In this document: piece after piece, positions 19,644 to 37,683 of the stretch
Numbering within the stretch: the stretch's first letter is position 1
Layout of the letters: each line of letters begins with the position of its first letter
Source: Faecalibacter bovis
Lineage (GTDB): Bacteria > Bacteroidota > Bacteroidia > Flavobacteriales > Weeksellaceae
Reading direction: 5' to 3'
DNA length: 64,000 nt
NCBI RefSeq assembly: GCF_017948305.1
Contig: NZ_CP072842.1
Location: 1,094,001-1,158,000 of the forward strand
Position numbers and translations under genes: made by a program
The notes under the pieces: generated by a model
What the model was told of the DNA's origin: nothing
The model's database searches: none
Seen by the model: the letters and a program-made list of their open reading frames with translations, nothing else

Positions 19644-20037
19644 GGGGTTGACTGGTTTTGACAGCAAGTCCAATGGGTAAGTAAGCATGCAGTGAAATGT
19701 TGTGTACTCACTTTAATCAGGCACTTCGACTTTTTAACTGGCAACGAAGAGTACGCTTTAGCTGCATAATCCGAATTATAGTAGGATTCGCTTTTATCCG
19801 TATTAGATACGGAAGCTGAATATCCCTCAGAAGCCTTGACTTACGGCGTCTGATCAAGGGATACGGGAAAGTAAGAATAGAGATTCTGATGTTTCTAAGG
19901 AATCTTGAAATTTTAGAAAATAAGCGTATGACAGGGTGTTTGTTCTCAGGATTACGCCGACAATTAAAAATAAACTAAGCATGTAGAAAGCTTATTTGTT
20001 GCTTGTTTGGACGCGGGTTCGAATCCCGCCAGCTCCA
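19644..20037 (+). ncRNA. ssrA: tmRNA (ssrA)
   Basis: tmRNA rescues stalled ribosomes. The tRNA-like ends pair as GGGGTTG (19644-19650) with CAGCTCC (20030-20036), the discriminator is A20037 and CCA is not encoded. The T arm reads CGGGTTCGAATCCCG. The resume frame begins at GGC 19740, after the UAACU context, and runs to TAA 19767-19769, encoding GNEEYALAA. With the charged alanine the tag is A-GNEEYALAA, close to the GENNYALAA-like tags of the phylum. The 3' end doubles as the attachment site of the island that follows. Confidence 0.95.
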
Positions 20038-20038
20038 C
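20016..20038 (+). repeat. attL: 23-bp core repeat at the tmRNA 3' end
   Basis: These 23 bp, from GGTTCGAATCC through AGCTCCAC, lie inside the tmRNA T arm and acceptor and recur exactly at 36740-36762. Insertion here leaves ssrA whole, because the island side restores its 3' end. Confidence 0.93.
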
Positions 20039-20062
20039 TTTTTTAACAGCAATTAGCGGTTA

Positions 20063-20096
20063 AAAGCCTTATTTCAGTAGAAATAGGGCTTTTTTT
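20063..20096 (+). terminator. Terminator supplied by the island to ssrA
   Basis: The stem AAGCCTTATTT/AAATAGGGCTT, with a run of seven T, lies 26 bp after the tmRNA end and inside the island. The likely original terminator is now beyond attR at 36775-36809. Confidence 0.7.
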
Positions 20097-20140
20097 ATGT
20101 CCTTAATATACCGTTTGCGGACATATATAGACATATTTCG

Positions 20141-20187
20141 AGTGACCATTTGGTGACCATAAACAAAACATCATTTTATGGTCACCA
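20141..20187. promoter_or_regulatory. Left-end repeats, candidate integrase/excisionase arm sites
   Basis: GACCA is repeated with 11-bp spacing (20144, 20155). The second copy forms the left arm of a 13-bp perfect inverted repeat TGGTGACCATAAA/TTTATGGTCACCA (20151-20163, 20175-20187). A like-spaced GACCA pair lies near the right end (36674, 36685). The binding role is inferred. Confidence 0.45.
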
Positions 20188-20360
20188 GAATTTTGATAAT
20201 CCTTTTATACATCAGGTCTACAGACGAATTTTTTAACATTATTTTTGGGCGTGTGGATAGCCTTTTTTTTAACCTAACCACGAACATGTCCATTTATCGA
20301 ACATCTTGATTCTTAATCAATAACTAATTAATTTTTTTCTAACCATTAAAAATTGATCAA

Positions 20361-21587
20361 ATGAAACAAGATTTAAGACTAAATGTCTATTTAAGAAATG
20401 CAAGAGTCAATAAACTAGGGCTAGTTGCAATTTATTTACGAATTACCATTAATGGGCAAAGATGGGATTTCAGTACTAACAAATTCATTGATCCTAAGAC
20501 TTGGGATGCAAAAAATGCCAAAATCAAAGGAAGTTCGCAAGAAGCCAGTTCAATTAATGGTTACCTTGATGTATTAAAAATGAAGATTGTTAACCTCGAA
20601 ATCGAATACAGTTTAAGAGACGAACATCTCACATTGGAGGATATTAAAAATTTCTTAACCAATAAGAAAAAGGAAGTAGTCCGAATGCTTATTCCAATAT
20701 TCGAACACCATAACAAGCAAATTAAAAAACTCGAAAACAAAGAATTTGCTCCAGGAACTATTGTTCGGTATGATACTACATTAAAACATCTAAAAGATTT
20801 CTTATTACATAAGTATAACGTGGAAGATATCAGACTCGATAAAGTTGATCATGCATTTATTATGGATTTTGATTTTTACTTTCGTACAGAGCGCAAGTGT
20901 AATAACAATACTACAGTAAAGTATATCAAGAATTTCAAAAAGATTATTAATTATTGTTTAGCAAATGATTGGATTCAGAAAGACCCATTTATAAATTATA
21001 AAGTAAAAATTGAAAAAGTAGAGAGGGTTTTCTTATCTCAAGATGAAATCTATAAAATTTATGAAAAGGAACATCCGGCAGAAAGATTAAACCTTGTACG
21101 CGATATATTTATCTTTTCATGCTATACAGGTTTAGCCTATGTAGATGTGGATAACCTTACAAAAAATCATATTGTAAAGGGAATAGATGGTCAATTATGG
21201 ATTCATACCTACAGACAAAAAACCTCAACAGCAACTAAAATCCCATTACTAGATATTCCTTTACAAATCATTGAAAAGTATAAAGATCATTTTTTATGTA
21301 AGAAAGGTAAATTACTACCCATTTTCAGTAATCAAAAAATGAATGCTTACTTAAAAGAAATTGCAACAATTGCTGAGATAGATAAAGAACTAACTTTCCA
21401 TTGTGCCAGGCATACATTTGCTACAACGGTTACATTGTCCAATGGAGTTCCTATCGAATCAGTTTCTAAGATGTTAGGACACACAAATATTACAACTACA
21501 CAACATTATGCTCGTATTACTGAACAGAAAGTAAGTAACGATATGGATCATCTAAAATTTATAATAAATAATAAAAAGGCATTGTAA
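20361..21587 (+). CDS. int: Tyrosine recombinase (integrase) of the island
   Basis: A 408-residue site-specific recombinase. An N-terminal arm-binding domain (residues ~1-110) and a SAM-like core-binding domain (~110-215) precede the catalytic domain. The HxxR box is HCARHTFATT, and the later His is in LGHTNITTTQHYARI, whose Tyr is the nucleophile. The position of the first catalytic Arg reads SCYTGLAYVD, with Ala in place of Arg, as is typical of the IntDOT-like integrases of Bacteroidota conjugative transposons. It lies next to attL and presumably drives insertion into the tmRNA end. Confidence 0.93.
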   Translation: MKQDLRLNVYLRNARVNKLGLVAIYLRITINGQRWDFSTNKFIDPKTWDAKNAKIKGSSQEASSINGYLDVLKMKIVNLEIEYSLRDEHLTLEDIKNFLTNKKKEVVRMLIPIFEHHNKQIKKLENKEFAPGTIVRYDTTLKHLKDFLLHKYNVEDIRLDKVDHAFIMDFDFYFRTERKCNNNTTVKYIKNFKKIINYCLANDWIQKDPFINYKVKIEKVERVFLSQDEIYKIYEKEHPAERLNLVRDIFIFSCYTGLAYVDVDNLTKNHIVKGIDGQLWIHTYRQKTSTATKIPLLDIPLQIIEKYKDHFLCKKGKLLPIFSNQKMNAYLKEIATIAEIDKELTFHCARHTFATTVTLSNGVPIESVSKMLGHTNITTTQHYARITEQKVSNDMDHLKFIINNKKAL

Positions 21588-21662
21588 AAAATGTCTTTTT
21601 ATTTTGTGTAAAAAATTGATTATTAATAATTTAATTGTAATTAATACTAATCATATACTTAA

Positions 21663-22481
21663 ATGAGTTATCAATTAAAAATTATTTACAGCAAATTAGA
21701 AGCAGATTTAACTGTATTAAAAAGGAAAAATCTTAACAGTATTGATGAAGCAGAAAATGCCATTCAATTAATCGAACAATGTTTATCTGTTATTCAAGAA
21801 AAGTTGACTAATCATAATTTCTGTTCTACAATAGATGAGATAAATTATTTTAAAGAAGAATTTCCTAAGATATTTAGAATTTATTATTACTACAAAACAT
21901 TATTTAATATTGAGAGTCAAAAGTATTTTAATTGTATTTCTAAATTTCAAGAAATTGAATTTTATTCTGCTCATATACCTCAACTTAATTCAATTGATGA
22001 AGATGAAATTAACTTATTAAGAGAATCAAAGTCTACTTTTAACCATAAAAGTAAAAAATTATACTTGCGTAAATATTTCAAATGGAGGCGGCAAAATTTA
22101 ACTACTGCAATGAATGAAACTTATGTGACAAGTTCAATTTCTGTTGCAATTGGTAAAAGACATGCTAAAGCAGATGTAATACACTATCTTCAAAAAAAAA
22201 TAGATGACTTAAATAATAAGTCAACTATCCAAAAATCTCCACTTCAATGGACATCTTCTAAAGTCTTATTAGTGGAATTAATATATGCTTTATCACTTAC
22301 AGGATGTATAAATGATGGTGAAGTAGAATTAAATCAACTTATTTTACATTTCGAAATATTATTTAATGTAGAACTCGATAATCACAATAGTATCATTCAA
22401 AATATTAAAGCACGTAAGATTAATAAAACTAAGTTTATCGATATGTTACGAGAATATCTCAGTAAAAAACTATTAGATTAA
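21663..22481 (+). CDS. RteC-domain protein
   Basis: A 272-residue protein resembling RteC, the regulator that controls excision genes of Bacteroides CTnDOT-type elements. The family-like segments are EINYFKEEFPKIFRIYYYYKT near residue 58 and a basic KWRRQN patch near 140. A C-terminal helical region (WTSSKVLLVELIYALSLTGCINDGE) follows; such segments in this family are linked to DNA binding. It lies 75 bp after the integrase on the same strand. The regulatory role in this island is inferred from family and position. Confidence 0.75.
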   Translation: MSYQLKIIYSKLEADLTVLKRKNLNSIDEAENAIQLIEQCLSVIQEKLTNHNFCSTIDEINYFKEEFPKIFRIYYYYKTLFNIESQKYFNCISKFQEIEFYSAHIPQLNSIDEDEINLLRESKSTFNHKSKKLYLRKYFKWRRQNLTTAMNETYVTSSISVAIGKRHAKADVIHYLQKKIDDLNNKSTIQKSPLQWTSSKVLLVELIYALSLTGCINDGEVELNQLILHFEILFNVELDNHNSIIQNIKARKINKTKFIDMLREYLSKKLLD

Positions 22482-22796
22482 TATAAATCAATCTTACATT
22501 CTATTACATCGTTATACTTTACACAGAGTTTATTACTTCTACAAATCTCTCATCATTTCAAGAAATATTATTTAACTTTTATGTAATTATATAATTACAC
22601 TTAAAAATTCATTTACATCTTATGAGTTAACATATTTGTCTTAAATGAGTAAATAAAACATTTCTTTCAGTCCTTTTCAATCCATCATCACCAGCGGATT
22701 CTTAATTTTATTTTTATGTAGTTGATATGTAGTACATAAAAAATTCATTAAGGTTTACAGAACTTTGTAATGTCAATGAAATAAACCTAAATCAAA
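22482..22796. other. 315-bp intergenic stretch
   Basis: AT-rich sequence without a convincing reading frame. An ACTTTG at about 22764-22769, 28 bp before the next ATG, may be the core of a -7 element. Nothing else is supported. Confidence 0.4.
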
Positions 22797-23072
22797 ATGA
22801 AAAAATTTAAACGAATCCATCCAGAAGATATTCAACACATACGTGAAGTACTCTTTATCGATCTTAAAAATTATTTAGAAAATAACGTAAAATCAAAATG
22901 GTTACGATCCAAAGAAACATGTAAACAGTTAGGAATATCAGATTCTACACTTAAACAATTTAGAAACAGTAACAGAATAACATTTTCCCGCATTGGGAAA
23001 GTATATTACTACAACATAGAAGACATCAATTATTTACTCGAACAAAACAAAGTAGATAGATTGAACATATAA
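22797..23072 (+). CDS. Helix-turn-helix excisionase-like protein
   Basis: A 91-residue DNA-binding protein. The core WLRSKETCKQLGISDSTLKQFRNSNRITFSRIG..YYYNIEDI is a winged helix of the MerR/excisionase (HTH_17) type found in Bacteroidota mobile elements. The short N-terminal helix (IQHIREVLFIDLKNYLE) is also usual. It may act as a directionality factor or as a transcription regulator of the island. It is followed by a terminator, so it is a monocistronic unit. Confidence 0.85.
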   Translation: MKKFKRIHPEDIQHIREVLFIDLKNYLENNVKSKWLRSKETCKQLGISDSTLKQFRNSNRITFSRIGKVYYYNIEDINYLLEQNKVDRLNI

Positions 23073-23100
23073 TAATTTCATTTGGTTAGTTGGTTTGGTT

Positions 23101-23150
23101 AGGCAGGTTTATTTACGACAAAAAAGTAATAAGCCTGCCTTTATTTTTTC
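23101..23150 (+). terminator. Terminator after the excisionase-like gene
   Basis: The stem AGGCAGGTTTATT/ATAAGCCTGCCTT (with G-U) encloses a 15-nt loop and is followed by a T-rich tract. Confidence 0.65.
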
Positions 23151-23255
23151 CAATAATAATCATTCGTCACTTCGAGAAGTAAGACGATAAACTAATCACT
23201 AGAATACAACATCTCAAATCTAAATACATTTTACAAATCCCATAATACAACAGCA

Positions 23256-24128
23256 ATGAATTACATCAAGCAATTAAATTACTTCTACAACAAAATTCAG
23301 TACGATCATAAAATCGCACCTTGTCAAATCGCATTATACTTAGCTTTATTCCAATGCTGGAACAGACAGCGTTTTGAGAATCCAATCTTCGTTATTAGAG
23401 ATGAGGTAATGCGTTTAAGTAAAATAACTTCTAAGAGCACCTATCATCGTTCTATGAATATTCTACACGATAACGGATACATTATATACGAACCGTCTTA
23501 TAACCCATATATGGGCAGTAAAATCTATTTCCAAGATTTATCTAAACTTAATAATTCAGCGAAAAACACCATACTAAAAAACAGTAACGGTATGAAAAAG
23601 GCAGTTGCTAAACCTAGCAAACAGACCCGTACCAAAAAAGAGCAAGATATAGACAATGCTATGCAAACACCTACCGAAACACCAATAGAGCCTATATATA
23701 AACATATAAATAATAAACATATAAACAATAGAGAGAATGTGTGTAAGCAAGCACAAATTCCATCTTTAATTTTTGATAAAAAAGAACAAAATAACCTAAG
23801 TAATATTCAGACAGGTAAGATGGAAGAAATGAACCAAAAAGAAAAAAGTTCCGCTAAAAAAGAAAAAGGTACAATTCCCACATATGATGAGGTGATTGAG
23901 TTTTTCCAAGAGAAATACGAAAACAAACAGGAGGGAGAGAAGTTCTTCTACTATTTTGAATCCAATGGTTGGTTAGTAGGAGGTAAAACACAAATGAAAA
24001 ATTGGACTGCAGCTGCTAATAATTGGATGATCAATATGAATAAATACAATAATCCAAACCTAAATACATTTGGAGTTCAGAAACCTTTAGATACCTCACC
24101 AAACAAACGATACGACGAACCATTATAA
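23256..24128 (+). CDS. Replication initiator-like protein (winged helix + DnaD-like tail)
   Basis: A 290-residue protein. The N-terminal part (about 1-95: IAPCQIALYLALFQCWNRQRF, then LSKITSKSTYHRSMNILHDNGYI) is a winged helix like those of phage and mobile-element replication proteins. The middle (~110-200) is polar and low in complexity. The C-terminal part (PTYDEVIEFFQEKY...FYYFESNGWLVGGK..MKNWTAAANNW) matches the end of Bacteroidota replication/transposon proteins. It is followed 14 bp later by a DnaC-like loader, so the pair probably starts replication of the excised element. Confidence 0.7.
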   Translation: MNYIKQLNYFYNKIQYDHKIAPCQIALYLALFQCWNRQRFENPIFVIRDEVMRLSKITSKSTYHRSMNILHDNGYIIYEPSYNPYMGSKIYFQDLSKLNNSAKNTILKNSNGMKKAVAKPSKQTRTKKEQDIDNAMQTPTETPIEPIYKHINNKHINNRENVCKQAQIPSLIFDKKEQNNLSNIQTGKMEEMNQKEKSSAKKEKGTIPTYDEVIEFFQEKYENKQEGEKFFYYFESNGWLVGGKTQMKNWTAAANNWMINMNKYNNPNLNTFGVQKPLDTSPNKRYDEPL

Positions 24129-24142
24129 CCAATACACTAGCT

Positions 24143-24748
24143 ATGATTAATTATCAAAAACTTTTATTTCATTTAGAACAAAGGGGAAGAAAACGTTTCA
24201 ATCCTAAGTTCACATTACAAAAAGAAGATTATCCTTTCATCATTCGTATTGCAGCGTATTTCTTAAATGATGAAGCCAAATGCAACGAACTAGAAATGGA
24301 TTTAAACAAAGGCATTTTATTAACTGGACCAATTGGAATAGGAAAAACTACATGGTTTCAGTTGATTCAAGAAATCACTGTAGCTAATCAGAAATTTTAT
24401 TACACAACTTGCAGAAATGTAACATTCGAATTTATACAGAATGGGTACGAGGTTATTCACAAATACAGTAGGGGAGATATACATACTTTCTCACCAAAGA
24501 ATATATGTTTTGATGATCTAGGTACTGAAAATAATTTCAAATACTTTGGAAATGAATGTAATGTGATGACAGAAGTAATTCTCAGTAGATACGACTTGTA
24601 TATCTCACATGGTATTAAAACATATATCACCACAAACCTTTCGGCTCCAGAAATTGAAAAGTTCTATACTAAGCGTGTCCGTTCACGCCTTCGTGAGATG
24701 ATGAATGTATTATCTGTTCCTGCAGAAAGTAAGGATAAGAGAGAGTAA
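24143..24748 (+). CDS. DnaC/IstB-like AAA+ ATPase (helicase loader)
   Basis: A 201-residue P-loop ATPase. Walker A is GPIGIGKTT (about residues 64-72) and Walker B is ICFDDLG (~122-128). A sensor-like TTNLS (~171-175) and an arginine-rich RVRSRLREMM end follow. The length and order fit DnaC-type loaders of mobile elements. It is adjacent to the initiator-like gene; together they form the replication module of the island. Confidence 0.8.
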   Translation: MINYQKLLFHLEQRGRKRFNPKFTLQKEDYPFIIRIAAYFLNDEAKCNELEMDLNKGILLTGPIGIGKTTWFQLIQEITVANQKFYYTTCRNVTFEFIQNGYEVIHKYSRGDIHTFSPKNICFDDLGTENNFKYFGNECNVMTEVILSRYDLYISHGIKTYITTNLSAPEIEKFYTKRVRSRLREMMNVLSVPAESKDKRE

Positions 24749-24801
24749 ATGCTAATAAATTTTCATTAATTACATATATTGTATAAAATTTACTAACTAA
24801 T

Positions 24802-25254
24802 ATGATTAATCCTGAAATTAAAATTCAATTAATAAGTTTTTTTGATTCCACAAAGAAACTTAAAGAAAACCAAATCATACGAAGCTCAAATTTTTCTGGA
24901 GATATTGCAGAATACCTTTGTCAAGAAATATATGGATTAACCCTTTGTGAAAATCAAAGAGAAATAGGCTATGACGCAGTAAAAGATGGCATTAAATATC
25001 AAATAAAAATTAATAACAGTTCTCAAAAGACAAATCAAGGTATAGGTAATCCATCTGAATATAATTATCTTTTACTTTTAATCACTTCGGAGAGTAAGTT
25101 ATTTAATCCAAAGTACGATAATTACTTCATTACCATTTATAAAATTGAAAATAAAGATTTGTTAATAGGTGACAATATTGCTAAAAGTTATTTGTTTAAT
25201 CTAAAACCAGAATATTTAATTACTCAAGATTTTCAAGTTTTAAATATAAATTAA
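24802..25254 (+). CDS. PD-(D/E)XK nuclease-like protein (DUF6998-like)
   Basis: A 150-residue protein with the layout of a restriction-endonuclease-like fold. A helix with E37 (FSGDIAEYLCQEI) precedes the core GYDAV..GIKYQIKI, in which D58 and Q67-x-K69 form a D...(E/Q)xK metal site. It resembles the small nuclease-like family annotated as DUF6998. The cleavage activity and target are not known. It stands 6 bp before the cyclase-like gene and is almost certainly co-transcribed with it. Alternatives are a non-catalytic nuclease relative or an effector of a two-gene defence unit. Confidence 0.6.
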   Translation: MINPEIKIQLISFFDSTKKLKENQIIRSSNFSGDIAEYLCQEIYGLTLCENQREIGYDAVKDGIKYQIKINNSSQKTNQGIGNPSEYNYLLLLITSESKLFNPKYDNYFITIYKIENKDLLIGDNIAKSYLFNLKPEYLITQDFQVLNIN

Positions 25255-25260
25255 AAACAT

Positions 25261-26013
25261 ATGACATACGAAAAAAGACTATGTTGCTTTATTGATATCT
25301 TAGGATTTAAAGCGCATATAGATGAATCTAAAAATAATGATAGTAAGATTGATTCCATAGCTAACATATTAAAATTAAATCGTGAAATTGTTAATGAAGA
25401 CGGACTTATATCCAAAAAGATAACTCATTTTTCTGATTCAATAGTAATATCGTATAAATATGATGAAACAGATAATATATTTTTTTTCTTAGAGGATTTA
25501 AAATTTCTTTCAATAGAGTTAGCAGCTAAAGGATATTTGGTTCGTGGCGGTGTTACGGTTGATGATTTAATTCATGAAGATAATATGATTTTTGGACCTG
25601 CAATGGTTGAAGCGTATGAGTTAGAATCTAAAAAAGCGTTTTATCCAAGAATCATAATTAGTAAACTTTTTATAGAAACAGTTTCAGAAATTAAAGATCA
25701 ACATAGACAAAAGGATACTTTGAATTATTTTAATAGTGCCTTAAGAATAGACGATGATAGAAAATTCTATTTAGATTATATTGAAGTTTCGCCTGATCTT
25801 GACAATGAGCATGGAATTGTTGAATATCTTCAAAAGTTAAAATTATTTTTTAAAGATTTTGATAATCAAAGAGATGATGTGAAATTAAAATTGGTTTGGC
25901 TAAAAAATAAGATAAATATTTACATAGATAAATTACATCAAAATGTTGAGATAAACGAAGATTTAAATCAAGAAACAATCGATTTATATAAATCGATAAC
26001 TAAGATTAATTAA
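25261..26013 (+). CDS. Class III nucleotidyl cyclase-like protein
   Basis: A 250-residue soluble protein. The motifs come in the order and spacing of the class III cyclase fold. CFIDILGF (D12) is at the first metal site. FSDSIVIS (D59, 47 residues later) is at the second. RGGVTVDD (95-102) is the strand that reads IGIHTG in adenylate cyclases, and FGPAMVEAYELE (111-122) stands where GDAVNIAARLE is expected. The C-terminal 100 residues are helical and unassigned. The neighbour is a nuclease-like gene. Cyclase activity is inferred from motif resemblance; it could be a catalytically dead relative. Confidence 0.55.
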   Translation: MTYEKRLCCFIDILGFKAHIDESKNNDSKIDSIANILKLNREIVNEDGLISKKITHFSDSIVISYKYDETDNIFFFLEDLKFLSIELAAKGYLVRGGVTVDDLIHEDNMIFGPAMVEAYELESKKAFYPRIIISKLFIETVSEIKDQHRQKDTLNYFNSALRIDDDRKFYLDYIEVSPDLDNEHGIVEYLQKLKLFFKDFDNQRDDVKLKLVWLKNKINIYIDKLHQNVEINEDLNQETIDLYKSITKIN

Positions 26014-26040
26014 AAAAGCAACCCGTTTGGGTTGCTTTTT
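26013..26040. terminator. Bidirectional terminator
   Basis: AAAAAGCAACCC/GGGTTGCTTTTTT with loop GTTT separates the convergent cyclase-like and DUF6527 genes. Confidence 0.85.
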
Positions 26041-26358
26041 TTACCAGAATATAAACCAAGGTTTTTTCTTCTTTTTCTTAATATCAGGTATAAAAACGAA
26101 ACGATTATCTCTAATCCAGTAATGTGATCTACAATTGAAATTCCAATTTCCGATGGAAGGATACATAGTGATATGCTTACCATCGTAATATAAATCCCAA
26201 TCATTGGGTGATAATCGTGTAACGACTTTTTCTCCGCATCCGCAAGCACATAAATGAATACAAATACTATTCTCCATAGAGATGTAAAGTACATTTTGTT
26301 TTAAATCAGATGGGATGTACTCTACAAATGAATTTTTGAAAACAGGATTATTCATCAT
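26041..26358 (-). CDS. DUF6527-like zinc-binding protein of the multi-ubiquitin operon
   Basis: A 105-residue protein with CACGCGEKVV (about 37-46), LSPNDWDLYYDG, SIGNWNFNCRSHYWI (~79-93) and a basic tail. The Cys/His set (CxCGCG ... CRSH) is that of DUF6527, a small zinc-finger-like family repeatedly placed next to bacterial E1-like and multi-ubiquitin genes. Its role there is unknown; a RING-like partner is one idea. Its ATG overlaps the end of the E1 gene by 11 bp (26348-26358), indicating coupled translation. It is last in the operon and ends at a terminator. Confidence 0.75.
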   Translation of the reverse strand: MMNNPVFKNSFVEYIPSDLKQNVLYISMENSICIHLCACGCGEKVVTRLSPNDWDLYYDGKHITMYPSIGNWNFNCRSHYWIRDNRFVFIPDIKKKKKKPWFIFW

Positions 26359-27493
26359 TCATTATTTTGAAAGGTTCACCGCAGAATGAATTAGTTACAT
26401 AATTACCTTGTGAGTTTGTGTAAAATCCATAAAACTGTTTCCATTTGATTACTGCTAAACAAGCATTTAAAGCGTTTATTTCAGCAATTTGTATGTTAGA
26501 TTTATAGATTTCATTTAAATCATGTTCAGGATTTTCAATCGTATTATTGGGATCATTACCTTGATTTAAACTAACACGTGCCATTACGGAAAGTTGTTCC
26601 CCTTGTTGATTTATCCCAATTCCTACATCTATAAATGGGATTTGATTAGTTTTTAAATATTCTATAATATTTTGTCTAACAGGAATAGTATCAATACTTA
26701 AAAAAACAAAATCTAAATTTTTTAATTCATGTATGTTAACTGAATTAATCTTTGTAGGATGTTTTTTAATTCCTTGATGCATTCTAGAATATACACTCTC
26801 TAAATAATCAATTTTTAAGGTTTGGGAATGTAGTAATTCAACTTCAGGTGCTCCAGGCGCTCTGAAAGAATTGTGAGAACAGAAAATATCATCATCATAT
26901 AAATGAATTTCTGACACGTTAGTTTTAGCAATAAAATCTAAAATATAACTGCCGGAACCTCCCAAGCCTACTATACCTATTCTCATTTCATTGAACCTTT
27001 CATTTAATTTATAGATTCTAGCGCGTAAAGAATTAGTGTCGTAATATTTTAAATTATTTATTGCAGATGACTTCTCAAACAATTTAAATGGTTTCCCTAA
27101 ATTAGGTTTACATTTAGCGTCTATTTCTTGTGCATACTGACTAATTATTTTAGTGTAATGGATAAACTTATCGTAATAATTCGTAAAACCCTCAGGTGGT
27201 TTGTTTGAAAAAGAATAATTAGTTTTTAAATTACTTGAAAGATCGATATTCTCTCCTAAAAGTATTCCATTAATACGATTTCCTTCATTATCACACGGAA
27301 ATTCGCCCATAAAATTAATTACATGATCAGTCGGTGGATCAAGTGTATAATCATCTTTTAAATTTAGAGGAGCTACAAGAGCTCCCCATTTAATTTGTTT
27401 ATCTTGATTTACATATGGGATATGTTCTAAAACAAGATGACCGTCTATAAAATTAACACTGTAACCTTCAGTTGCTAATCTTTCTATATCCAT
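26348..27493 (-). CDS. E2-like/E1-like ThiF-family adenylyltransferase (DUF6791-ThiF)
   Basis: A fusion protein of about 381 residues. The N-terminal domain (ERLATEGYSVNF...HLVLEHIPYVN...HVINFMGEFPCD) looks like DUF6791, with a conserved Cys67 that could carry a thioester. The second half is an E1/ThiF Rossmann domain: GIVGLGGSGSYI near residue 170, then LYDDDIFCSHNSFRAPG and a D-x-x-x-VR segment (DTIPVRQN). It would adenylate the C-terminus of a ubiquitin-like protein. I chose the ATG at 27493, which lies one base after the multi-ubiquitin stop; an in-frame ATG at 27520 would overlap that gene by 26 bp. Confidence 0.82.
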   Translation of the reverse strand: MDIERLATEGYSVNFIDGHLVLEHIPYVNQDKQIKWGALVAPLNLKDDYTLDPPTDHVINFMGEFPCDNEGNRINGILLGENIDLSSNLKTNYSFSNKPPEGFTNYYDKFIHYTKIISQYAQEIDAKCKPNLGKPFKLFEKSSAINNLKYYDTNSLRARIYKLNERFNEMRIGIVGLGGSGSYILDFIAKTNVSEIHLYDDDIFCSHNSFRAPGAPEVELLHSQTLKIDYLESVYSRMHQGIKKHPTKINSVNIHELKNLDFVFLSIDTIPVRQNIIEYLKTNQIPFIDVGIGINQQGEQLSVMARVSLNQGNDPNNTIENPEHDLNEIYKSNIQIAEINALNACLAVIKWKQFYGFYTNSQGNYVTNSFCGEPFKIMNDE

Positions 27494-27494
27494 G

Positions 27495-28139
27495 TTACGA
27501 TTGATAAGTTGCTGAAGCATAAAAACGAATTTTATTTACTACTTTAACTTTCTTTCCTTTTACTAAGACACCTTCAGGTTTAGAATGATGTCCATTATCG
27601 TAACTAATAGTGTAAGCGGTATTAGGATTACCAGCTGTATCTAGCCCTGCAAGCTCAAGAACTTCATCAAATGTGATTTGATTTTTATTCCAAAATTTTA
27701 ATTCTCCATTTACTATAATTTCGAATTGATCTTTTGTATAAAATTTCTCTTTACCTGGTCTAGCTAAATCGACTAATTCATCGTTTTCTATTACAGAATC
27801 TTCCCACTCATCATCTACATCAATAAATAATATTGATTCTAGTGATAATCCAGCTTTTAACTTAATTTCTTCACCTGATATAAATTGTTTGTATGAGATG
27901 AAACTAATACCGTTTACTGAATAATCGAGTTTCTTCTTTACATAGAATTGTTCGATCCCAGGTCTAGCTAAATTGACTTTAGTGGTGTTTTCAATTAATT
28001 CGTCTTCATAAGGACGCTTAATTGCTAAAAATAATTCTGTAGTGTGTGGTACGCCAAATAGGTCTTTTAATTCTTGCCCATTGATGTATTGATTTGGTGT
28101 TTCATATTCAACACCTTCAAATGTATATTTTAATGTCAT
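27495..28139 (-). CDS. Multi-ubiquitin domain protein (three beta-grasp repeats)
   Basis: A 214-residue protein of three tandem ubiquitin-like units: about 1-69, 70-138 and 139-214. Units one and two each end in a near-identical VNLARPGIEQFY / VDLARPGKEKFY segment. Unit three carries ITFDEVLELAG, AYTISYDNG and the ending RFYASATYQS, which corresponds to the C-terminal end of multi-ubiquitin family proteins. There is no di-glycine at the C-terminus. It is the first gene of a three-gene operon with the E1-like and DUF6527 genes. It presumably is the modifier or a scaffold; conjugation has not been shown from sequence. Confidence 0.82.
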   Translation of the reverse strand: MTLKYTFEGVEYETPNQYINGQELKDLFGVPHTTELFLAIKRPYEDELIENTTKVNLARPGIEQFYVKKKLDYSVNGISFISYKQFISGEEIKLKAGLSLESILFIDVDDEWEDSVIENDELVDLARPGKEKFYTKDQFEIIVNGELKFWNKNQITFDEVLELAGLDTAGNPNTAYTISYDNGHHSKPEGVLVKGKKVKVVNKIRFYASATYQS

Positions 28140-28177
28140 GTGACTTCTTTTTAAATTTTTAAACCTAATTTACTTAA

Positions 28178-28194
28178 GCTCTAGAGCCTAGAGC
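28178..28194. promoter_or_regulatory. Palindrome upstream of the multi-ubiquitin operon
   Basis: GCTCTAG-AGC-CTAGAGC is a perfect 7-bp inverted repeat with a 3-nt spacer, 39 bp before the multi-ubiquitin ATG. It could be the operator of the divergent XRE regulator. No second copy is seen near that regulator's promoter. Confidence 0.35.
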
Positions 28195-28325
28195 AATCTT
28201 TCTAAATAATTTGATGTACATATAATAATCGTACTCGAATAATTGTTTCTGCGACTTTTAAAAGTTTTAAAATTGTTAACGTAAATATGTTTCTTATCAG
28301 AAACATTGTTAAAGTCTTAGAAAAA

Positions 28326-28357
28326 TTTGGTTTAAAAACTAAAGTAGAATACATTTG
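28326..28357 (+). promoter_or_regulatory. Candidate promoter of a small RNA
   Basis: TTTG at 28326-28329 and TACATTTG at 28350-28357 are separated by 20 bp. This is a full match to the Bacteroidota -33/-7 pattern, in an intergenic region and pointing away from the multi-ubiquitin operon. Confidence 0.45.
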
Positions 28358-28362
28358 AATTT

Positions 28363-28484
28363 CCTACGTTCAAGTATCTAACTGATTCTTATTTTTTTGC
28401 TAAACGCCTTGCAAGGGCTACTGCTATTTAGAATCATTAGTTTTGACCAAAAACCAGGCGAACCATATCGACTGGTTTTTTTTT
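28363..28484 (+). ncRNA. Candidate small RNA between the ubiquitin-like operon and the XRE gene
   Basis: Downstream of the promoter at 28326-28357 about 122 nt run without a reading frame to a convincing intrinsic terminator: AAACCAG/CTGGTTT at 28451-28478 followed by U8. Inside, CTAAA/TTTAG (28400-28404, 28427-28431) encloses a GCC/GGC hairpin. On the other strand a TATATTTG (28508-28501) could start the multi-ubiquitin transcript, whose leader would then be antisense to this RNA. I do not recognise the RNA family. Confidence 0.35.
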
Positions 28485-28694
28485 ATCTAAACTTTCGATG
28501 CAAATATAATAAAAAATTCGTTTCAAAAAATAATTATAAAACTTTCATTAATTTATATTAAAATTTTAACGTTATTAATCTTTATAATTGGTTATTTGGT
28601 TGTAAATACATATATTGTACCATATTAACAAAGGTTGTTTGTAAGTATTATAAACGTTAATTAATATTTTTTTTTTTATATTATTAAATTTATT

Positions 28695-28702
28695 TAACTT
28701 TG
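28695..28702 (+). promoter_or_regulatory. -7 element of the XRE/ImmA operon
   Basis: TAACTTTG at 28695-28702 lies 15 bp before the ATG, giving a very short leader. The upstream -33 region is a T-run rather than a clear TTG. Confidence 0.5.
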
Positions 28703-28716
28703 CAACTAGAAAAAAA

Positions 28717-29049
28717 ATGAGTTTTATGAAAGATGAAAGCCTGTTTTACAGTGAATTAGGTAATAATATCTTATCAATTAGAACTAGAAAAGGAATCAGT
28801 CAAGACGATTTGGCAAAAGAAATAGGTTTGTCTAGACCCTCAATAGCTAATATTGAAAAAGGAAAACAACGTCCTAGTATCTATATTTTATTACAATTAT
28901 CTAAAATATTAGGTGTAGATATTAAAGAATTATTACCGGAATCAATTATCTCTTATAATAAGATAGATATTGGAAACGTTATAAGCTTAGATAAAACTAA
29001 GTCTGATTTATTTAGCGAAAACTTTATAAGTTTTTTAGATGAAATTTAA
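28717..29049 (+). CDS. XRE-family HTH transcriptional regulator
   Basis: A 110-residue Cro/CI-type repressor. The HTH at about residues 15-70 is unambiguous: LGNNILSIRTRKGISQDDLAKEIGLSRPSIANIEKGKQRPS. The short C-terminal part probably contacts the protease partner encoded 11 bp downstream. It is divergent from the multi-ubiquitin operon. Repressor plus ImmA/IrrE pairs control mobile elements and defence genes by cleavage of the repressor. Confidence 0.9.
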   Translation: MSFMKDESLFYSELGNNILSIRTRKGISQDDLAKEIGLSRPSIANIEKGKQRPSIYILLQLSKILGVDIKELLPESIISYNKIDIGNVISLDKTKSDLFSENFISFLDEI

Positions 29050-29060
29050 AATATCATTTT

Positions 29061-29591
29061 ATGGCAATTAGTAAGGAAGTAAGTAATGCAACAAAACAGT
29101 TCATTATTAATAATGAACAGTTTTTTAATGAAGCTCCTGTTATTATTGATGATATCATTAGCCATTTTAATATCCAAAAGAAAGAATATGCGTTTGAAGA
29201 TGATATTTCAGGAGTGTTAATCATTGATAAATCTAAAGATAAATTTACGATTGGTATTAATAAACAAGGTACTGATCAACGTAAAAATTTTACGATTGCT
29301 CATGAATTAGGACATTTTGTTCTTCATAATAATGATATGTCTAACACTTTCGTTGATAATATTTTCTTTAGAAAAAAAGCCGATGGTTACACATCAAAAG
29401 AAGAGAAAATCGAGAAAGAAGCTAATTATTTTGCAGCTAATATACTTATGCCAGAACATTTAGTAAAAAAAGAGATTGCAAATTTAGAAAACGATTGGTT
29501 TGAAGACGATGCAGTAGCTGAATTAGCCAAAAAATTTAATGTAAGTAGTTCTGCTATGATGTATAGATTAATTAATTTAAAATTAATTTAA
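29061..29591 (+). CDS. ImmA/IrrE family metallo-endopeptidase
   Basis: A 176-residue zinc peptidase. The HExxH motif is in FTIAHELGHFVLH (about residues 76-88), and the third ligand is probably the Glu in EKEANYFAANILMP (~119-132). This is the standard signature of ImmA/IrrE proteins, which cleave XRE repressors. The gene forms an operon with the XRE regulator. Its last residues and stop are built from the first copies of an 11-bp tandem repeat (29572-29626). Confidence 0.9.
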   Translation: MAISKEVSNATKQFIINNEQFFNEAPVIIDDIISHFNIQKKEYAFEDDISGVLIIDKSKDKFTIGINKQGTDQRKNFTIAHELGHFVLHNNDMSNTFVDNIFFRKKADGYTSKEEKIEKEANYFAANILMPEHLVKKEIANLENDWFEDDAVAELAKKFNVSSSAMMYRLINLKLI

Positions 29592-29626
29592 AATTAATTT
29601 AAAATTAATTTAAAATTAATTTAAAA
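29572..29626. repeat. Five tandem copies of an 11-bp repeat
   Basis: The unit TTAATTTAAAA is repeated five times without error. It overlaps the last codons and stop of the ImmA/IrrE gene. The stop lies in the second unit, so changes in copy number downstream would not alter the protein. Confidence 0.9.
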
Positions 29627-29645
29627 TTTAAAATATAATTTTTTA

Positions 29646-29675
29646 GTAAGGCCAATTTAGGCCTTATTTTTTTGA
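29646..29675 (+). terminator. Terminator of the XRE/ImmA operon
   Basis: The stem TAAGGCC/GGCCTTA is followed by a run of seven T. Confidence 0.75.
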
Positions 29676-29748
29676 TTTTTATTTTATTTATCTAATACGC
29701 AAGTCGTTATTTTTTTTTTGATCTTAAAAAAATCCAAATTTCTAAATT

Positions 29749-29955
29749 TTACATTTTTAGTTCCTCTAAATAGCTACTCTTACACACTTCTAAATTATCT
29801 TGTAAATATTTCAATTCACGTTGTAAAGAATCGTTGACATGATTCAATTCTTCAACTTTATAGATTAAAATCGCTTGTAAATGTTCATCCTTATTCATCT
29901 TTTGTTTACAATTGATGAATAAAATTCCTAATAATAGTAAACATAGATATTTCAT
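29749..29955 (-). CDS. Small lipoprotein with coiled-coil body
   Basis: A 68-residue protein. The signal peptide MKYLCLLLLGILFINC ends in a clear lipobox with Lys after the Cys. The rest (EHLQAILIYKVEELNHVNDSLQRELKYLQDN) has heptad-like spacing and is probably a coiled coil. The size and form recall the small entry-exclusion or lysis-type lipoproteins of mobile elements, but I cannot assign it. Confidence 0.6.
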   Translation of the reverse strand: MKYLCLLLLGILFINCKQKMNKDEHLQAILIYKVEELNHVNDSLQRELKYLQDNLEVCKSSYLEELKM

Positions 29956-31368
29956 GTTTTTTTTATTATTAATTTAAAGAAAATCATATGATTAAGTTAA
30001 ATATGAATTATTTATAGTTGATTAATAATTATTTAATTGTCAACCCTCTCCAAAATCCATCCAGAACCCAACAAACAACAATTCAGTAGCGCTCAAACGT
30101 TTCGGAAGTAAAACCCATCCAACAGCGTATAACATGTATATACGCAATACCTTTTCGGGCTGAAGTAATTTTTTTGATCATAGGAAAAAAAGGTACTGCG
30201 TATATACAGCGCATGTTAGACGCTATTGGATTGAAGTTCCGGCGCTTTCCGATGGTCTGATTCCTTCCATTTTCCGAAAGTCCTTGATGATGGCTTTTTG
30301 AAGATTGTTGAAGTTTTAAATTATCGCTACAATCATTTTATTGCACCAACGATTTACTCCAATAATGTGCAACTTCAATTTCATTCAGTAACAATCATTC
30401 TAACCTATAAAAATGGCTAGGTTTTGAGTAAGAAATATAAAACCTATCCATTTTAAACTTGATTAGAAAATTACTATTCAAACCAAAAGTTGCACACCAT
30501 TGGGCAAAATCAGCCCTTGCATTCGTTGCTCTGTACTGTTTTTCACAAAGCAGAAAAACAAAAGCAACCAATGCTGATAAGGGCTTTCGTTAGGTGCAAA
30601 AAATGCTTGTTTAGCGATAAGATTTCCTCATTTCCCCGCCACCCCATCAATGGATGCAGGAGACTTACAGCAGAAGTATTAAGTGGGACATTTGGCACAG
30701 ACAAAAATGCAAGGGTAGCACACAGTTGGTGTTAAATAAGTTACCAACCGATGTGCTACTATTCCTTGCATTTTGCCAGTGCTCAAAATGGCGAGGAGTA
30801 GGCCTACACAACTGCTATTCATTTTATACAAAGCCAATGCATACTCATCACTCCAAACTCACAACAACATCGTAGCCCTACTTTATCCTCGCCACCCTTT
30901 TTGAAAGTGGTCTGCTGTAAGTCTCCTGCGCGTATTGCCCCGTTTTTAAAAGCCTGATTCCCATGAAAACAACCTTAAACCGCCAATTTTGAATAGAATC
31001 GAATAAACAATAAAATACCCTCATTCAATGAAAAGAACAAGGGTTTTTTTAATTCAAATGAAGTTACCAAATTTTATTGAATGAATATAATTGTTACACT
31101 AATTTAAAAAGTAATCAACTAAAAGTCAATAATGTAAAGCAAAAAAATCCAACAAAAAGAACCGCAAAGGTCTATCAGTTTCATTTTTAGTCAAGGTCAA
31201 GCCTTGTAGATTTACATCAAAATCTCCACCTATACAGGTTGTATTTGGATGTAAAACCTTGCCTTAAAAAATGCTCCTGCTATATCGAAGAGCTTTCTTT
31301 TTTTTCCTTTTTTCTTTTAAAGAATATCCTGCGAAGCATGGCGAGCATAAATTTTTAAATGCCAAGCT
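29956..31368. other. 1.4-kb non-coding region with three large imperfect hairpins
   Basis: No reading frame here looks genuine. Three inverted-repeat structures dominate. (a) 30103-30156 with 30187-30243, arms of about 50 nt including TATATACGCA/TGCGTATATA. (b) About 30487-30603, pairing TTGCAC.. and AGCCCTT..GCATT..GTTGC with their complements near 30568-30603. (c) A 19-bp perfect repeat 30656-30674/30911-30929, nested over a second long stem 30694-30730/30743-30782 containing AAAATGCAAGG and GTAGCACA. Base composition is richer in GC than the flanks. It may be a cis-acting transfer or replication site or structured RNA; the function is unknown. Confidence 0.6.
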
Positions 31369-31788
31369 ATGAACTTACCAGAAATTAAACATTATTCAGC
31401 CAAAGTAGAGATTCAGTCAAATGATCTATTTGCTTTATCCAAAGGTCTAAACGTGGGAAAGCCACTGGAAGAATCTTGCCCTAACTGTTTTGTCATTCGT
31501 TGTACCAATTGGAAACAAAAAGAAACGTACAAAGCAATTCTTTATGCAGCCTGGAAGACCAATTCATTCGATAATTATTTATGTGGATCAGTCATTCCGT
31601 TTATACGAATCAATGATTTTAAAAAAGTAGTTACTGAAAAGGCTCATAAAGCGTTTAGTAATTACAAAAGATTTAATAATGATTTTCAGCGTTATCTAGA
31701 ATTGGAGAAATACGAAACTTCAATCGCTAAGCAATTGCAACTCATTCGAGAATTGAAACAGGTGTATATTATGCGAAACATCAAGTAA
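31369..31788 (+). CDS. DUF6943-like hypothetical protein
   Basis: A 139-residue cytoplasmic protein. The segment FALSKGLNVGKPLEESCPNCFVIRC near residue 21 and the following WKQKETYKAILYAAWKTNSFDNYLCGSVIPFIRI are typical of a family found only in Bacteroidota mobile elements and phages, which I believe is DUF6943. No function is known. It is a single gene between the structured region and a terminator. Confidence 0.65.
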   Translation: MNLPEIKHYSAKVEIQSNDLFALSKGLNVGKPLEESCPNCFVIRCTNWKQKETYKAILYAAWKTNSFDNYLCGSVIPFIRINDFKKVVTEKAHKAFSNYKRFNNDFQRYLELEKYETSIAKQLQLIRELKQVYIMRNIK

Positions 31789-31791
31789 CAG

Positions 31792-31822
31792 AAAAGGCCC
31801 TTCCAACGAAGAGCCTTTTATT
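31792..31822. terminator. Bidirectional terminator
   Basis: The stem AAAAGGC/GCCTTTT has a 14-nt inner part and T/A tracts and lies between convergent genes. Confidence 0.6.
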
Positions 31823-31962
31823 TATTTTTCTAATTTTTTAAGAATATACGAAACTACGAAACTCACAAATGCACCTACACCAGCTAAAACCGCAGTTTGT
31901 ACTAAATCATTTATGCCTAAGTTCCCCACAATACTAAATAGTGTACCCCAAAGTGTACCCAT
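31822..31962 (-). CDS. 46-residue membrane peptide
   Basis: A short frame reading MGTLWGTLFSIVGNLGINDL, then QTAVLAGVGAFVSFVVSYIL and a KKLEK tail. It has one clear transmembrane helix and a basic C-terminus. It starts 10 bp after the stop of another small membrane protein on the same strand. Small membrane pairs of this kind accompany DUF5675 genes in Bacteroidota. A holin-like role is possible but only inferred. Confidence 0.6.
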   Translation of the reverse strand: MGTLWGTLFSIVGNLGINDLVQTAVLAGVGAFVSFVVSYILKKLEK

Positions 31963-31972
31963 TTTCAATTGA

Positions 31973-32200
31973 CTATCCTGAATCATGTGTATTGACACCA
32001 TCTACAACGGTCAATTGGCTGACAGAACTTAGTACTCCACCTGCAACAGTTAAGTATCCGCCAAGATCATTTAACCAACTTGGTAAATCTACCGGAGAGG
32101 CTAAAAGCACTCCACCAATTGCAGCTAATACCAAACCAATATTTCGGAGCAATTGAAACAACTTAGGCGTCGGGGATTGAATTCGATCAACTATTTTCAT
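31973..32200 (-). CDS. 75-residue membrane protein
   Basis: This has two hydrophobic segments: about 20-36 (LRNIGLVLAAIGGVLLA) and 46-62 (LGGYLTVAGGVLSSVS). It has no signal cleavage site, which suggests a small inner-membrane hairpin protein. It is part of the minus-strand cluster that ends in the 46-residue peptide. The function is unknown; a holin- or scaffold-like membrane component is one possibility. Confidence 0.65.
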   Translation of the reverse strand: MKIVDRIQSPTPKLFQLLRNIGLVLAAIGGVLLASPVDLPSWLNDLGGYLTVAGGVLSSVSQLTVVDGVNTHDSG

Positions 32201-32534
32201 CCGTTAAATCATCCGTTTTAATTACACAATTTTTTAAAATGGCATCTAAATCGTTCGCGTGAAGAAAATCATTTTCATGAAGGACAAGAATGAATTACCG
32301 ACCAGAGGGAGCGATTTAATTCATTCCCGAAGTGAAAAGGATTTTTAGCGTAAACGATTTAAAGCCTTGACTTTTTTGGTTCGTTTTTGTGTCAAGACAA
32401 AAATGAACATATAGAAGTGAAGTCTTGAGAGAATTAATTTCTAACAAGAAAGGAACTGAATTAGTCATTCTGAATTCATTTCAGAATCACATCAAGTGAA
32501 ATATCCTTATGTCTTAAGTCTTATATCTTAAGCC
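32201..32534. other. 334-bp non-coding stretch with a hairpin repeat
   Basis: No credible frame. CTTGAC at about 32367 and GTCAAG at about 32392 form an inverted repeat over a T-rich loop. To my recollection this sequence type recurs in many flavobacterial genomes. It may be a promoter or processing site between the two halves of the cluster. Confidence 0.4.
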
Positions 32535-32936
32535 TTACATCTCACTCCTAATCACCAATTCAACCTTTTGCCCTTTATCAATCGCTTGATATACCAAATC
32601 CTTCACTTTATTAAAAGCTTTTTTGCTTTCCCATCCTATTCCAGCTCCACCCAAGGAAGTCACCGGAGCAATACAACCTAACAATTCTTTTTTCGCATTA
32701 TTTGCAGGATGCATCAAAATATAAGTCCTGTTTTGAACATCCTTTAACCATATATGCCATCCAAATTTTTGGCTGTATCGCTTTGCTAAAACATATTTCC
32801 CTTCCGGAATACACGATTTTCTCACTTCATTGTTCAACCAAGGCAACTCAATCGTATAACAAATAATACCTTTTGCATTTTGCAAAATGCCATTTGTTCC
32901 ATTAGGGAAATATGAACGGATCAGTTCTAACTTCAT
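32535..32936 (-). CDS. DUF5675 family protein
   Basis: A 133-residue protein. The family order is visible: YTIELPWLNNEVRKSCIPEGKY (about 27-48), then NRTYILMHPANNAKKELLGCIAP (~69-91), with a conserved His and a GC(I) pair. The His...GCI arrangement recalls L,D-transpeptidase-like active sites, but this is not established. DUF5675 proteins occur in phages and mobile elements. Its ATG shares its last base with the first base of the upstream gene's stop codon, so the two are translationally coupled. Confidence 0.75.
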   Translation of the reverse strand: MKLELIRSYFPNGTNGILQNAKGIICYTIELPWLNNEVRKSCIPEGKYVLAKRYSQKFGWHIWLKDVQNRTYILMHPANNAKKELLGCIAPVTSLGGAGIGWESKKAFNKVKDLVYQAIDKGQKVELVIRSEM

Positions 32937-33691
32937 TAGACTTGATCTACCTCAATCAATTGCAACGCATTGTACGCACCATTTTTCAGTACATACTTTT
33001 CACCATTAATTTCTTGATAGAATTCCACACCCAAAACAAAAAAAATAGGTTCTGTACTATTTGCAGGTAAAGTTGTCGCCAAACTAATTGCCGAAGTTTC
33101 TACAGAATCATACGGTAAAATACCAGTATCCGCTGTAGATACATTGAAAGAACCATCAATAAAATTGACATCTGATGCTGCAGCTTCAATTTTAAAGTGT
33201 GTAGTTCCCGATGGCGCATTAATCATATTAATCGGAACGAATGCCGGAATATCCACAATCACATCACCATCTGCACGATCTAAAGTCGTCGTATAAGGTG
33301 CATAAATTGTTGTAGATAACTTACCATTGATATTGAAATCAAATCCCTTTAACAGTGATAAATCACCGTTAATTACATTTCTATCCCCACGTTCACTAAT
33401 CATATCAGTCTGAATCACCTTCACCATTTCACGTGTCAAACGTCCAACCATTCTCGAATCAGCAGAGTTTAATAAAATTCCTCGAATCGAAGTTCTCAAC
33501 ATCTTTCCAGATGCACCTGCACGTCCAAACTCAGCTCCATTTTCACGTGTACGCTGAAAGTTAGGATCATTCATTATTCGGCTTTTATCCACGCCACCTT
33601 TCTCGCGTGCTAAAAAACCTTCCTTTGCTTTGTAAAAGGTAATGTCTCCAACAGTACCTAATAGCTTAATAATGCCCTTTTGTCTTGCCAT
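32936..33691 (-). CDS. Conserved Bacteroidota hypothetical protein of mobile regions
   Basis: A 251-residue protein. Its N-terminus (MARQKGIIKLLGTVGDITFYKAKEGFLAREKGG, then PNFQRTRENGAEFGRAG and GKMLRTSIR) belongs to a family I have seen repeatedly in flavobacterial genomes beside DUF5675 genes. It has no signal peptide. The second half is beta-rich (TIYAPYTTTLDRADGDVIVDIPAFVPINM), compatible with a structural or surface-fold protein. No function is known. It heads the minus-strand cluster. Confidence 0.7.
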   Translation of the reverse strand: MARQKGIIKLLGTVGDITFYKAKEGFLAREKGGVDKSRIMNDPNFQRTRENGAEFGRAGASGKMLRTSIRGILLNSADSRMVGRLTREMVKVIQTDMISERGDRNVINGDLSLLKGFDFNINGKLSTTIYAPYTTTLDRADGDVIVDIPAFVPINMINAPSGTTHFKIEAAASDVNFIDGSFNVSTADTGILPYDSVETSAISLATTLPANSTEPIFFVLGVEFYQEINGEKYVLKNGAYNALQLIEVDQV

Positions 33692-33825
33692 TTCTTCAAC
33701 ATTTTAATCATTCAACATTCTATATTCTACCGGTATATAATACAAGTATAGAAAAAACCGTAACTTTATTAAAACCAGCAAATACCGAATGGCGTTTATA
33801 TCATTTAATGTCCATAAATGACCTA

Positions 33826-33870
33826 TAGATGAAGTATAGATACAGCATAGATGAAGTATGGATAGTGTAT
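33826..33870. repeat. Imperfect tandem repeat upstream of the small HTH-like gene
   Basis: ATAGATGAAGTATAGATAC is repeated with small changes (ATAGATGAAGTATGGATAG) about 22 bp later. It lies between two divergent genes and could be an operator. Confidence 0.5.
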
Positions 33871-33884
33871 GAAAATGTATAATT

Positions 33885-34061
33885 ATGCAAAACAAGAAGC
33901 TACAACGGATTTGCGTTTACCCAAAGGATATCCAAATCATAACAGGCAAAAGTTATAGACAATCACTTCGCATCTATAACAAAATCAAAGCACATTATAA
34001 TAAACAACCTCATCAAGTCGTAACCTGGAAGGAGCTAAAGGATTTTTTAGGGATTTCTTAA
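33885..34061 (+). CDS. 58-residue HTH-like protein
   Basis: The frame runs from ATG 33885 to TAA 34061 and encodes a basic protein beginning MQNKKLQRICVYPKDIQII, with GKSYRQSLRIYNKIKAHY and ending LKDFLGIS. The helix pattern, with ITGKSYRQSLRIYNKI as a likely recognition helix, resembles short DNA-binding proteins found next to the MARQ/DUF5675 cluster in other flavobacteria. It is divergent from that cluster, with a tandem repeat between, and may regulate it. Confidence 0.65.
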   Translation: MQNKKLQRICVYPKDIQIITGKSYRQSLRIYNKIKAHYNKQPHQVVTWKELKDFLGIS

Positions 34062-34230
34062 AATTCCTTTTAAAGTTCTTAAATACACTAATGTGCTATA
34101 TATAAATTTAATAAGTTTTATAATATCAGAATAAATTGGTAATCAAACTACAATAATATATTTAGTGACATATATTATTTTAATCTTAAATGCTATTAAT
34201 ATATATTCGTGTACTATTAACAATATAAAA

Positions 34231-35841: not shown

Positions 35842-35847
35842 TTTATT

Positions 35848-36762: not shown

Positions 36763-36774
36763 AACTTATAAGAT

Positions 36775-37665: not shown

Positions 37666-37683
37666 CACACAATTCCTAAACTT

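Follow-up and report, generated by a model that had tools for sequence, protein, structure and literature searches.

How could a ubiquitin-like operon work when its modifier ends in serine rather than glycine and no gene for removing that modifier accompanies it? The question is raised by a locus in a 64,000-nucleotide stretch of the Faecalibacter bovis contig NZ_CP072842.1 (positions 1,094,001 to 1,158,000; hereafter the window). Three minus-strand open reading frames (ORFs) encode a multi-unit ubiquitin-like protein (Ubl), a fusion of DUF6791 with a ThiF-type E1 domain, and DUF6527 (Table 1). A first-pass annotation, made from the sequence alone, had described them as a three-gene ubiquitin-like operon with an E2/E1 fusion, and both the positions of the ORFs and their Pfam families bear this out, the E2 part on the strength of fold prediction. 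The three tandem beta-grasp units proposed for the Ubl are likewise recovered by sequence matches, to PF14452 three times over and to a solved multi-ubiquitin chain. The frames overlap as described, by 26 nt at the Ubl/E1 junction and by 11 nt between E1 and DUF6527 (26348-26358). Neither JAB nor any other deubiquitinase (DUB) family occurs among the scanned neighbours, in line with the statement that no separate deubiquitinase is present. Features of the operon type are a Ubl of one to three units that always ends in Ser, DUF6791 and E1 in a single chain, a conserved zinc-type partner and no JAB or Prok-E2_E genes. We think it fairly probable that the operon is related to Bub and to type 6e of Iyer et al., and that it is, as a whole, best explained as a streamlined ubiquitin-like conjugation operon.

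The window's Ubl ends in FYASATYQS directly before the stop codon, so the annotated ATYQS end without a Gly-Gly (GG) motif is confirmed; the terminal Ser is conserved across the family. At the Ubl/E1 junction, examined in 111 loci with the window included, the overlap is exactly 26 nt in 110 and 23 nt in the exception, L117 (L numbers are our locus labels). The last Ubl residue is Ser in 110/110 loci with the 26-nt overlap and in L117 too, the usual tail being F-[ND]-[VA]-[TS]-x-T-[DN]-[KRQ]-S. Repeat fetches of one operon are included in the 111, which comprise 104 loci unique by their flanks and 100 unique overlaps. Five loci were excluded as the window's own copy (L001-L003, L008, L041) and L135 for missing upstream sequence, while in L088, L110 and L115 the upstream frame was assigned from the codon at +23. 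Ubl lengths across 82 loci fit 38 one-unit, 20 two-unit and 24 three-unit proteins, judged by length only. The solved chain nearest to the Ubl by sequence is PDB 9cd2 ("ZDHYS365 multi-ubiquitin domain protein"; E 6.9e-14), with BilA a weak match (8u38, E 2.8e-4). Known here from its PDB sequence alone, 9cd2 ends in FYVTQTD plus two residues, a tail as in this Ubl family, and because the tail is shared it is very likely the Ubl of an operon of this type.

The overlap allows the tail to be examined in two frames. The terminal Ser codon is always TCN, with G, A, T or C at its third base in 42, 36, 25 and 1 of the 104 unique loci, and this base gives Arg, His, Leu or Pro in the E1 frame. Selection thus acts on the terminal Ser of the Ubl, whose codon stays TCN while its free third base changes the E1 residue. 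We considered decay as the origin of the missing GG and rejected it, since the Ser is conserved. Of the pairwise differences at overlap positions 3-22, 41.1% are silent in Ubl only, against 28.0% of possible changes, and 22.5% in E1 only, against 21.3%; the pairs are non-independent and the figures serve as description rather than test. No such constancy is seen between the E1 stop and the cysteine motif of DUF6527: their spacing, measured in 103 loci, has 18 distinct values, with 76 nt the commonest (41 loci). The fixed overlap may simply be two gene ends locked together, and it may additionally couple translation. A ribosomal frameshift joining Ubl and E1 seems unlikely to us given the codon before the stop (TCN) and the stop itself, which is TAG or TAA (TGA in one locus); to our knowledge, TCN followed by any of these stops is not a recognised +1 frameshift site.

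The fusion matches the uncharacterised NCBIfam family PRK06153 (PRK06153.1-4, E 3.1e-125). The ATP-site residues of its E1 domain, on which the first-pass annotation had made the E1 call depend, are present and conserved. A fold search with the whole fusion listed E1-type chains only, BubCD and ThiF ranking above MccB, and for this reason the E2-like domain was also predicted separately. In these predictions the DUF6791 model has an E2-like fold at modest Z, and DUF6791 is by prediction an E2-like domain. Searching the DUF6791 and DUF6527 profiles against PDB sequences gave no credible match. A JAB-like hydrolase was also considered for DUF6791 and rejected: hhalign with BubC gave a probability of 0.5%, the model is E2-like, and the HxH...SxxD motif is not seen in alignment A4. 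Our alignments cover 80/82 listed loci (A2), 74/83 (A4) and 71/79 (A5), each with the window added. Two loci (L036, L040) encode DUF6791 and ThiF in different frames, as a split E2 and E1 or as a frame break; their N-terminal pieces were counted and the C-terminal pieces left out.

Which residue would carry the Ubl is a question within this proposal. The conserved FPCD cysteine had been numbered Cys67, with 27493 as the start; counted from 27520, the start that the family conserves, it is Cys76. Its conservation as FPC holds in 78/81 fusion sequences, yet it is not strictly invariant, whereas Ser105 is (81/81), and for this reason either residue could be the nucleophile. An oxyester of the Ubl on Ser105 instead of Cys76, with Ser105 as the counterpart of the serine in the BubB motif WSRH, is compatible with conjugation, and we hold it possible although on the doubtful side. 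Eight aligned Prok-E2_E sequences share an invariant W-S-R-H and no invariant cysteine, and DUF6791 has F-S-x-K ahead of its long last helix; an oxyester route has reportedly been described for Bub by Ye et al. The correspondence between Ser105 and WSRH is, however, one of order along the chain only, and a separate explanation would be needed for why Cys76, close to where E2 enzymes have their HPN motif, is conserved.

The third gene fits the small Cys/His protein of the annotation. Invariant in 72 DUF6527 sequences are P16, H35, C37, G40, C41, P67, S68, G70, C76, S78, H79 and Y80, a Cys/His pattern consistent, at the level of sequence, with a zinc site. We scanned the 111 loci, whose flank lengths vary, with home-made profiles of DUF6527 (72 sequences), Prok-E2_E (8) and JAB (7). 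DUF6527 matches in 110/111, the remaining locus being cut by a contig end; Prok-E2_E matches in 0/111, and JAB in one, 5 kb off and on the other strand. Since DUF6527 is present with both E2/JAB and DUF6791 operons, we count it as part of a shared core. A role in target recognition, an idea dating to the 2006 paper of Iyer et al., is a guess.

The operon belongs to a genuine, known, widespread and uncharacterised type. Relatives of the fusion are encoded in at least 554 stretches of GTDB genomes (tblastn, E up to 1e-3, alignment query), and the best 80 of these were read, with matches spanning most of the fusion. Their titles name Bacteroidota, Acidobacteria, Verrucomicrobia, Bacillota, Actinobacteria, Cyanobacteria, Proteobacteria, Nitrospira and others; three metagenome-assembled genomes carry archaeal names, which binning may explain. 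The annotation had described the composition from a lone genome: its three parts are as described, but they form a widespread old operon type that is not peculiar to this genome. A rare composition is thus rejected by 80 full-length loci among at least 554 relatives. Closer to home, 28 of 99 genomes of the same genus, family and order have a match, full-length only in the genome itself and otherwise weak at best (<=26 bits, mainly in the ThiF part), and 395 genomes of the phylum hold DUF6791 in 14 and Prok-E2_E in 8. A genome scan with the single protein as query confirmed 0/15 candidates, and GenBank phage records gave no match to the fusion. Plasmid records matching the fusion number 128, 109 of which cover >=80% of it; among the matches listed are 40 plasmid rows, most of them annotated ThiF and multiubiquitin. 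Its sporadic presence in genomes and its occurrence on plasmids and viral contigs indicate that the operon is patchy and mobile. In L044, a Cytobacillus plasmid, the operon is followed downstream by a DarT/macro-domain pair (8329-9995).

The XRE/ImmA pair annotated beside the operon holds up: an XRE repressor and an M78 protease gene, both matching Cap models, lie divergent from the operon, in the layout of CapH/CapP pairs beside immune-type operons. Single-sequence searches placed M78 homologues upstream on the opposite strand in 24/87 loci, window included, and WYL in 3/87. We found 165 upstream ORFs and scanned 120, with raw counts of 27 M78, 26 HTH_3, 3 WYL, 3 STAS-like and 2 GHKL ATPase domains. 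A UvrD-helicase gene lies upstream in the same direction in 7/87 loci (L045, L046, L053, L107, L121, L123, L128) and is a second neighbourhood kind besides CapHP and CapW.

Taken together, we favour as a reasonably probable reading that the operon performs conjugation in cis by an E2-E1 enzyme, with an unprocessed Ser-ended modifier, no deconjugase and a DNA-damage-type switch; we infer each of conjugation, nucleophile and defence. DNA damage or phage attack would activate CapP, CapH would be removed and the operon transcribed. The E1 domain would adenylate the last Ubl unit at its C-terminal serine. The Ubl would then pass in cis to the E2-like domain (at Cys76 or, alternatively, at Ser105) and from there to a target protein, DUF6527 being the putative target or adaptor factor. 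JAB would not be needed because the tail is unprocessed, and the mark would be long-lived because the operon has no deconjugase. Its purpose would most likely be host or island defence, perhaps through inactivation of a target in phage or host.

Several points weigh against this proposal. For a ThiF-type active site, T-x-x-S is an unusual tail, and Cys76 is replaced by F, S or Y in 3/81 sequences. Comparison of the DUF6791 profile with that of BubB found nothing (probability 0.2%), so that the link to E2 enzymes is drawn from the predicted fold, with its modest Z. More broadly, the conjugation proposal is built on sequence and predicted fold, with conjugate, adenylate and thioester all putative. 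The single-sequence search found no seed regulator upstream in 48/87 loci. IMG/VR gave five matches, with four viral contigs spanning most of the protein. The annotation had also linked related operons to phage defence; for Bub operons, the nearest relatives, phage protection had not been demonstrated according to the passages of PMC13373217 on the subject, and this part of the claim is weakened.

The alternative that survives best keeps the same biochemistry and puts it to work in a general response to DNA damage or stress instead of phage defence. A signal from damaged DNA is implied by the CapHP-like regulator, CapP being activated by single-stranded DNA, and both options are kept for Bub operons (both in passages of PMC13373217). 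Nevertheless, the patchy presence (a full-length protein only in its own genome among the 99) and the location on an island and on plasmids are typical of defence or selfish cargo and not of housekeeping, and we regard this alternative as unlikely. We consider it quite improbable that the E1 works in the manner of MccB, adenylating a non-glycine end to yield a lasting Ubl-nucleotide or a cyclised tail and no protein conjugate. Such chemistry would need no E2-like domain, which is fused in all loci read but two (L036 and L040), and MccB is outranked in the fold search. A sulfur-carrier pathway of the ThiS/MoaD kind, with the Ubl as a thiocarboxylate, has the ThiF/MoeB homology of the fusion in its favour and is hardly credible given the lack of a Gly-Gly end and of a rhodanese domain in the fusion, the presence of the E2-like domain, and the 44/82 loci whose Ubl protein has the length of two or three units.

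If the Ser tail is the activated end, it would differ from the glycine with which E1-driven modifiers usually end, would show how a ubiquitin-like system can do without a deconjugase, and would supply a compact E2-E1 enzyme for study. DUF6791 gains a predicted E2-like fold, and an uncharacterised, widespread operon becomes directly testable through the terminal Ser, Cys76, Ser105 and the ATP site. More tentatively, the operons might constitute a distinct class across many phyla, in which the modifier stays unprocessed and is activated at its C-terminal Ser, E2 and E1 act within one chain, the mark persists since Gly tail and JAB were lost together, and the near-invariant 26-nt overlap carries the tail.

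Table 1. Coordinates of the operon, its regulator and the island that carries them, in window positions.
Feature	Position	Strand	Details
Multi-Ubl protein	27495..28139	-	214 aa, three beta-grasp units, end ...FYASATYQS; PF14452 E 8.6e-27, three stretches
DUF6791-ThiF fusion (E2-like + E1)	26348..27520	-	390 aa; PF20590 E 2.8e-41, PF00899 E 4.3e-12
E2-like domain (predicted), about residues 1-135	27116..27520	-	Cys76 codon 27293-27295, Ser105 codon 27206-27208
E1-like adenylation domain, residues 170-390	26351..27013	-	
DUF6527, putative zinc-binding protein	26041..26358	-	105 aa; PF20137 E 4.1e-24
Ubl/E1 overlap, 26 nt	27495..27520	-	codes Ubl tail (...ATYQS-stop) and E1 start (MLQQLINR)
Terminator-like hairpin, operon end	26012..26041	-	13 pairs, T run; adjoins end of convergent gene 25261-26013
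Divergent intergenic region, presumed operator/promoter	28140..28716	.	577 bp, between two divergent genes; contains GCTCTAGAGC at 28178
CapH-like XRE repressor	28717..29049	+	HTH_3 E 6.2e-16; PADLOC capH E 4.8e-11, third behind two generic HTH/control-protein models
CapP-like M78 (ImmA) metalloprotease	29061..29591	+	PF06114 E 2.1e-22; PADLOC capP E 2.7e-35, best match
Integrative island, in tmRNA 3' end, carries operon	20016..36762	.	about 16.7 kb; att copies 20016-20038 and 36740-36762, identical 23 bp
Tyrosine integrase of island	20361..21587	+	PF00589 E 3.3e-16; phrog_1 E 2.6e-37

The annotated mobile island is confirmed by its identical 23-bp att copies, which copy the tmRNA 3' end, by its integrase and by an empty site: in L147, the closest relative by tmRNA identity, window position 20038 runs straight on to 36740 onward. 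Two other relatives hold a second partial copy of the tmRNA end 12-17 kb away, for which reason the site may be a hot spot. An Rfam scan of 18000-38000 returned the tmRNA only, and terminator-like sites in 25900-30000 number 5, against a shuffle mean of 0.8. The cargo includes the integrase, RteC, a DnaC-like loader, a restriction-like ORF and a Tae4-domain protein. The ORF at 24802-25254 (+; DUF6998 E 3e-6, PADLOC mREase_II best at 6.9e-8) is a possible restriction-type defence gene. The 558-aa product of 34165-35841 (+) carries a Tae4 amidase-like domain at its C-terminus (E 3.3e-12) and is followed by a WG-repeat protein, and the two may be an effector/partner pair. The gene convergent with the Ubl operon, 25261-26013 (+), has no Pfam match and falls in phage family phrog_23933 (E 2e-35).

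Among known systems, type II CBASS has an E2-E1 fusion in Cap2; the present operon presumably acts on a dedicated Ubl, and no CD-NTase or CBASS effector family occurs among the scanned neighbours. BilABCD is alike in pairing a Ubl with E1 and E2 components, and the weak match of the Ubl to BilA points the same way. Bil has separate E2, DUB and E1 genes (passages of PMC11354881), whereas here the E2-like and E1 parts share one chain and the operon has no DUB gene.

Bub (BubA, BubB, BubCD; PDB 9ea4, 9eae, 9eav), for which passages of PMC13373217 count 544 operons, has in the examples examined a stand-alone or Ubl-fused BubB, a JAB fused to E1 and a Gly tail. The present operon shares an E1 domain of the BubCD kind and differs in having the E2-like domain fused to E1, with DUF6791 where BubC would sit, no JAB, and a tail ending in Ser (110/110), the Gly tail of Bub being drawn here from 16 operons and not from a published definition. 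In these 16 Prok-E2_E operons (L052, L139-L145, L159-L166), Gly stands at or near the Ubl end in 16/16 (TTEG, NNGE, TEGQ, TPG and similar), the cut site of fused Ubls being inferred and the Ubls of L165 and L166 picked by eye. JAB is present in 14/16, seven with the invariant HxH and SxxD of the BubC alignment and seven by profile; L166 has no JAB profile match and the count leaves L142 out. In Rhizobium (L140, 4753-5361), a ClpP-like protease gene after the Bub-type operon suggests a possible link between modification and proteolysis. One Acinetobacter plasmid holds both operon kinds (L045, L052), the second with a Ubl-E2 fusion, a JAB-E1 protein (BubCD match 389 bits), matches to BubA and BubB, and DUF6527.

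A close precedent is a subset of type 6e of Iyer, Burroughs and Aravind (2006; PMC1779556), in which, as the type 6e sections describe it, an uncharacterised N-terminal domain replaces JAB. Our operon is alike in its one to three Ubl repeats, its E1 with a non-JAB N-terminal domain (PF20590 with PF00899), its small zinc-type protein, and its sporadic and mobile occurrence. In Synechocystis, the source of the 2006 example sll6052, pSYSX (L139) carries Ubl, Prok-E2_E, JAB-ThiF and DUF6527 with a divergent HTH/ImmA pair; its protein and the window's DUF6527 share one Pfam family (PF20137), and DUF6527 matches the C-x3-C ... H-x2-C signature in part, its second half reading C-x2-H here. The type 6e sections mention neither the Ser tail nor the fixed gene overlap, and we make no claim that the tail is unreported. 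They leave the N-terminal domain unassigned, with a speculated JAB-like role, whereas the same position here holds a domain predicted to be E2-like.
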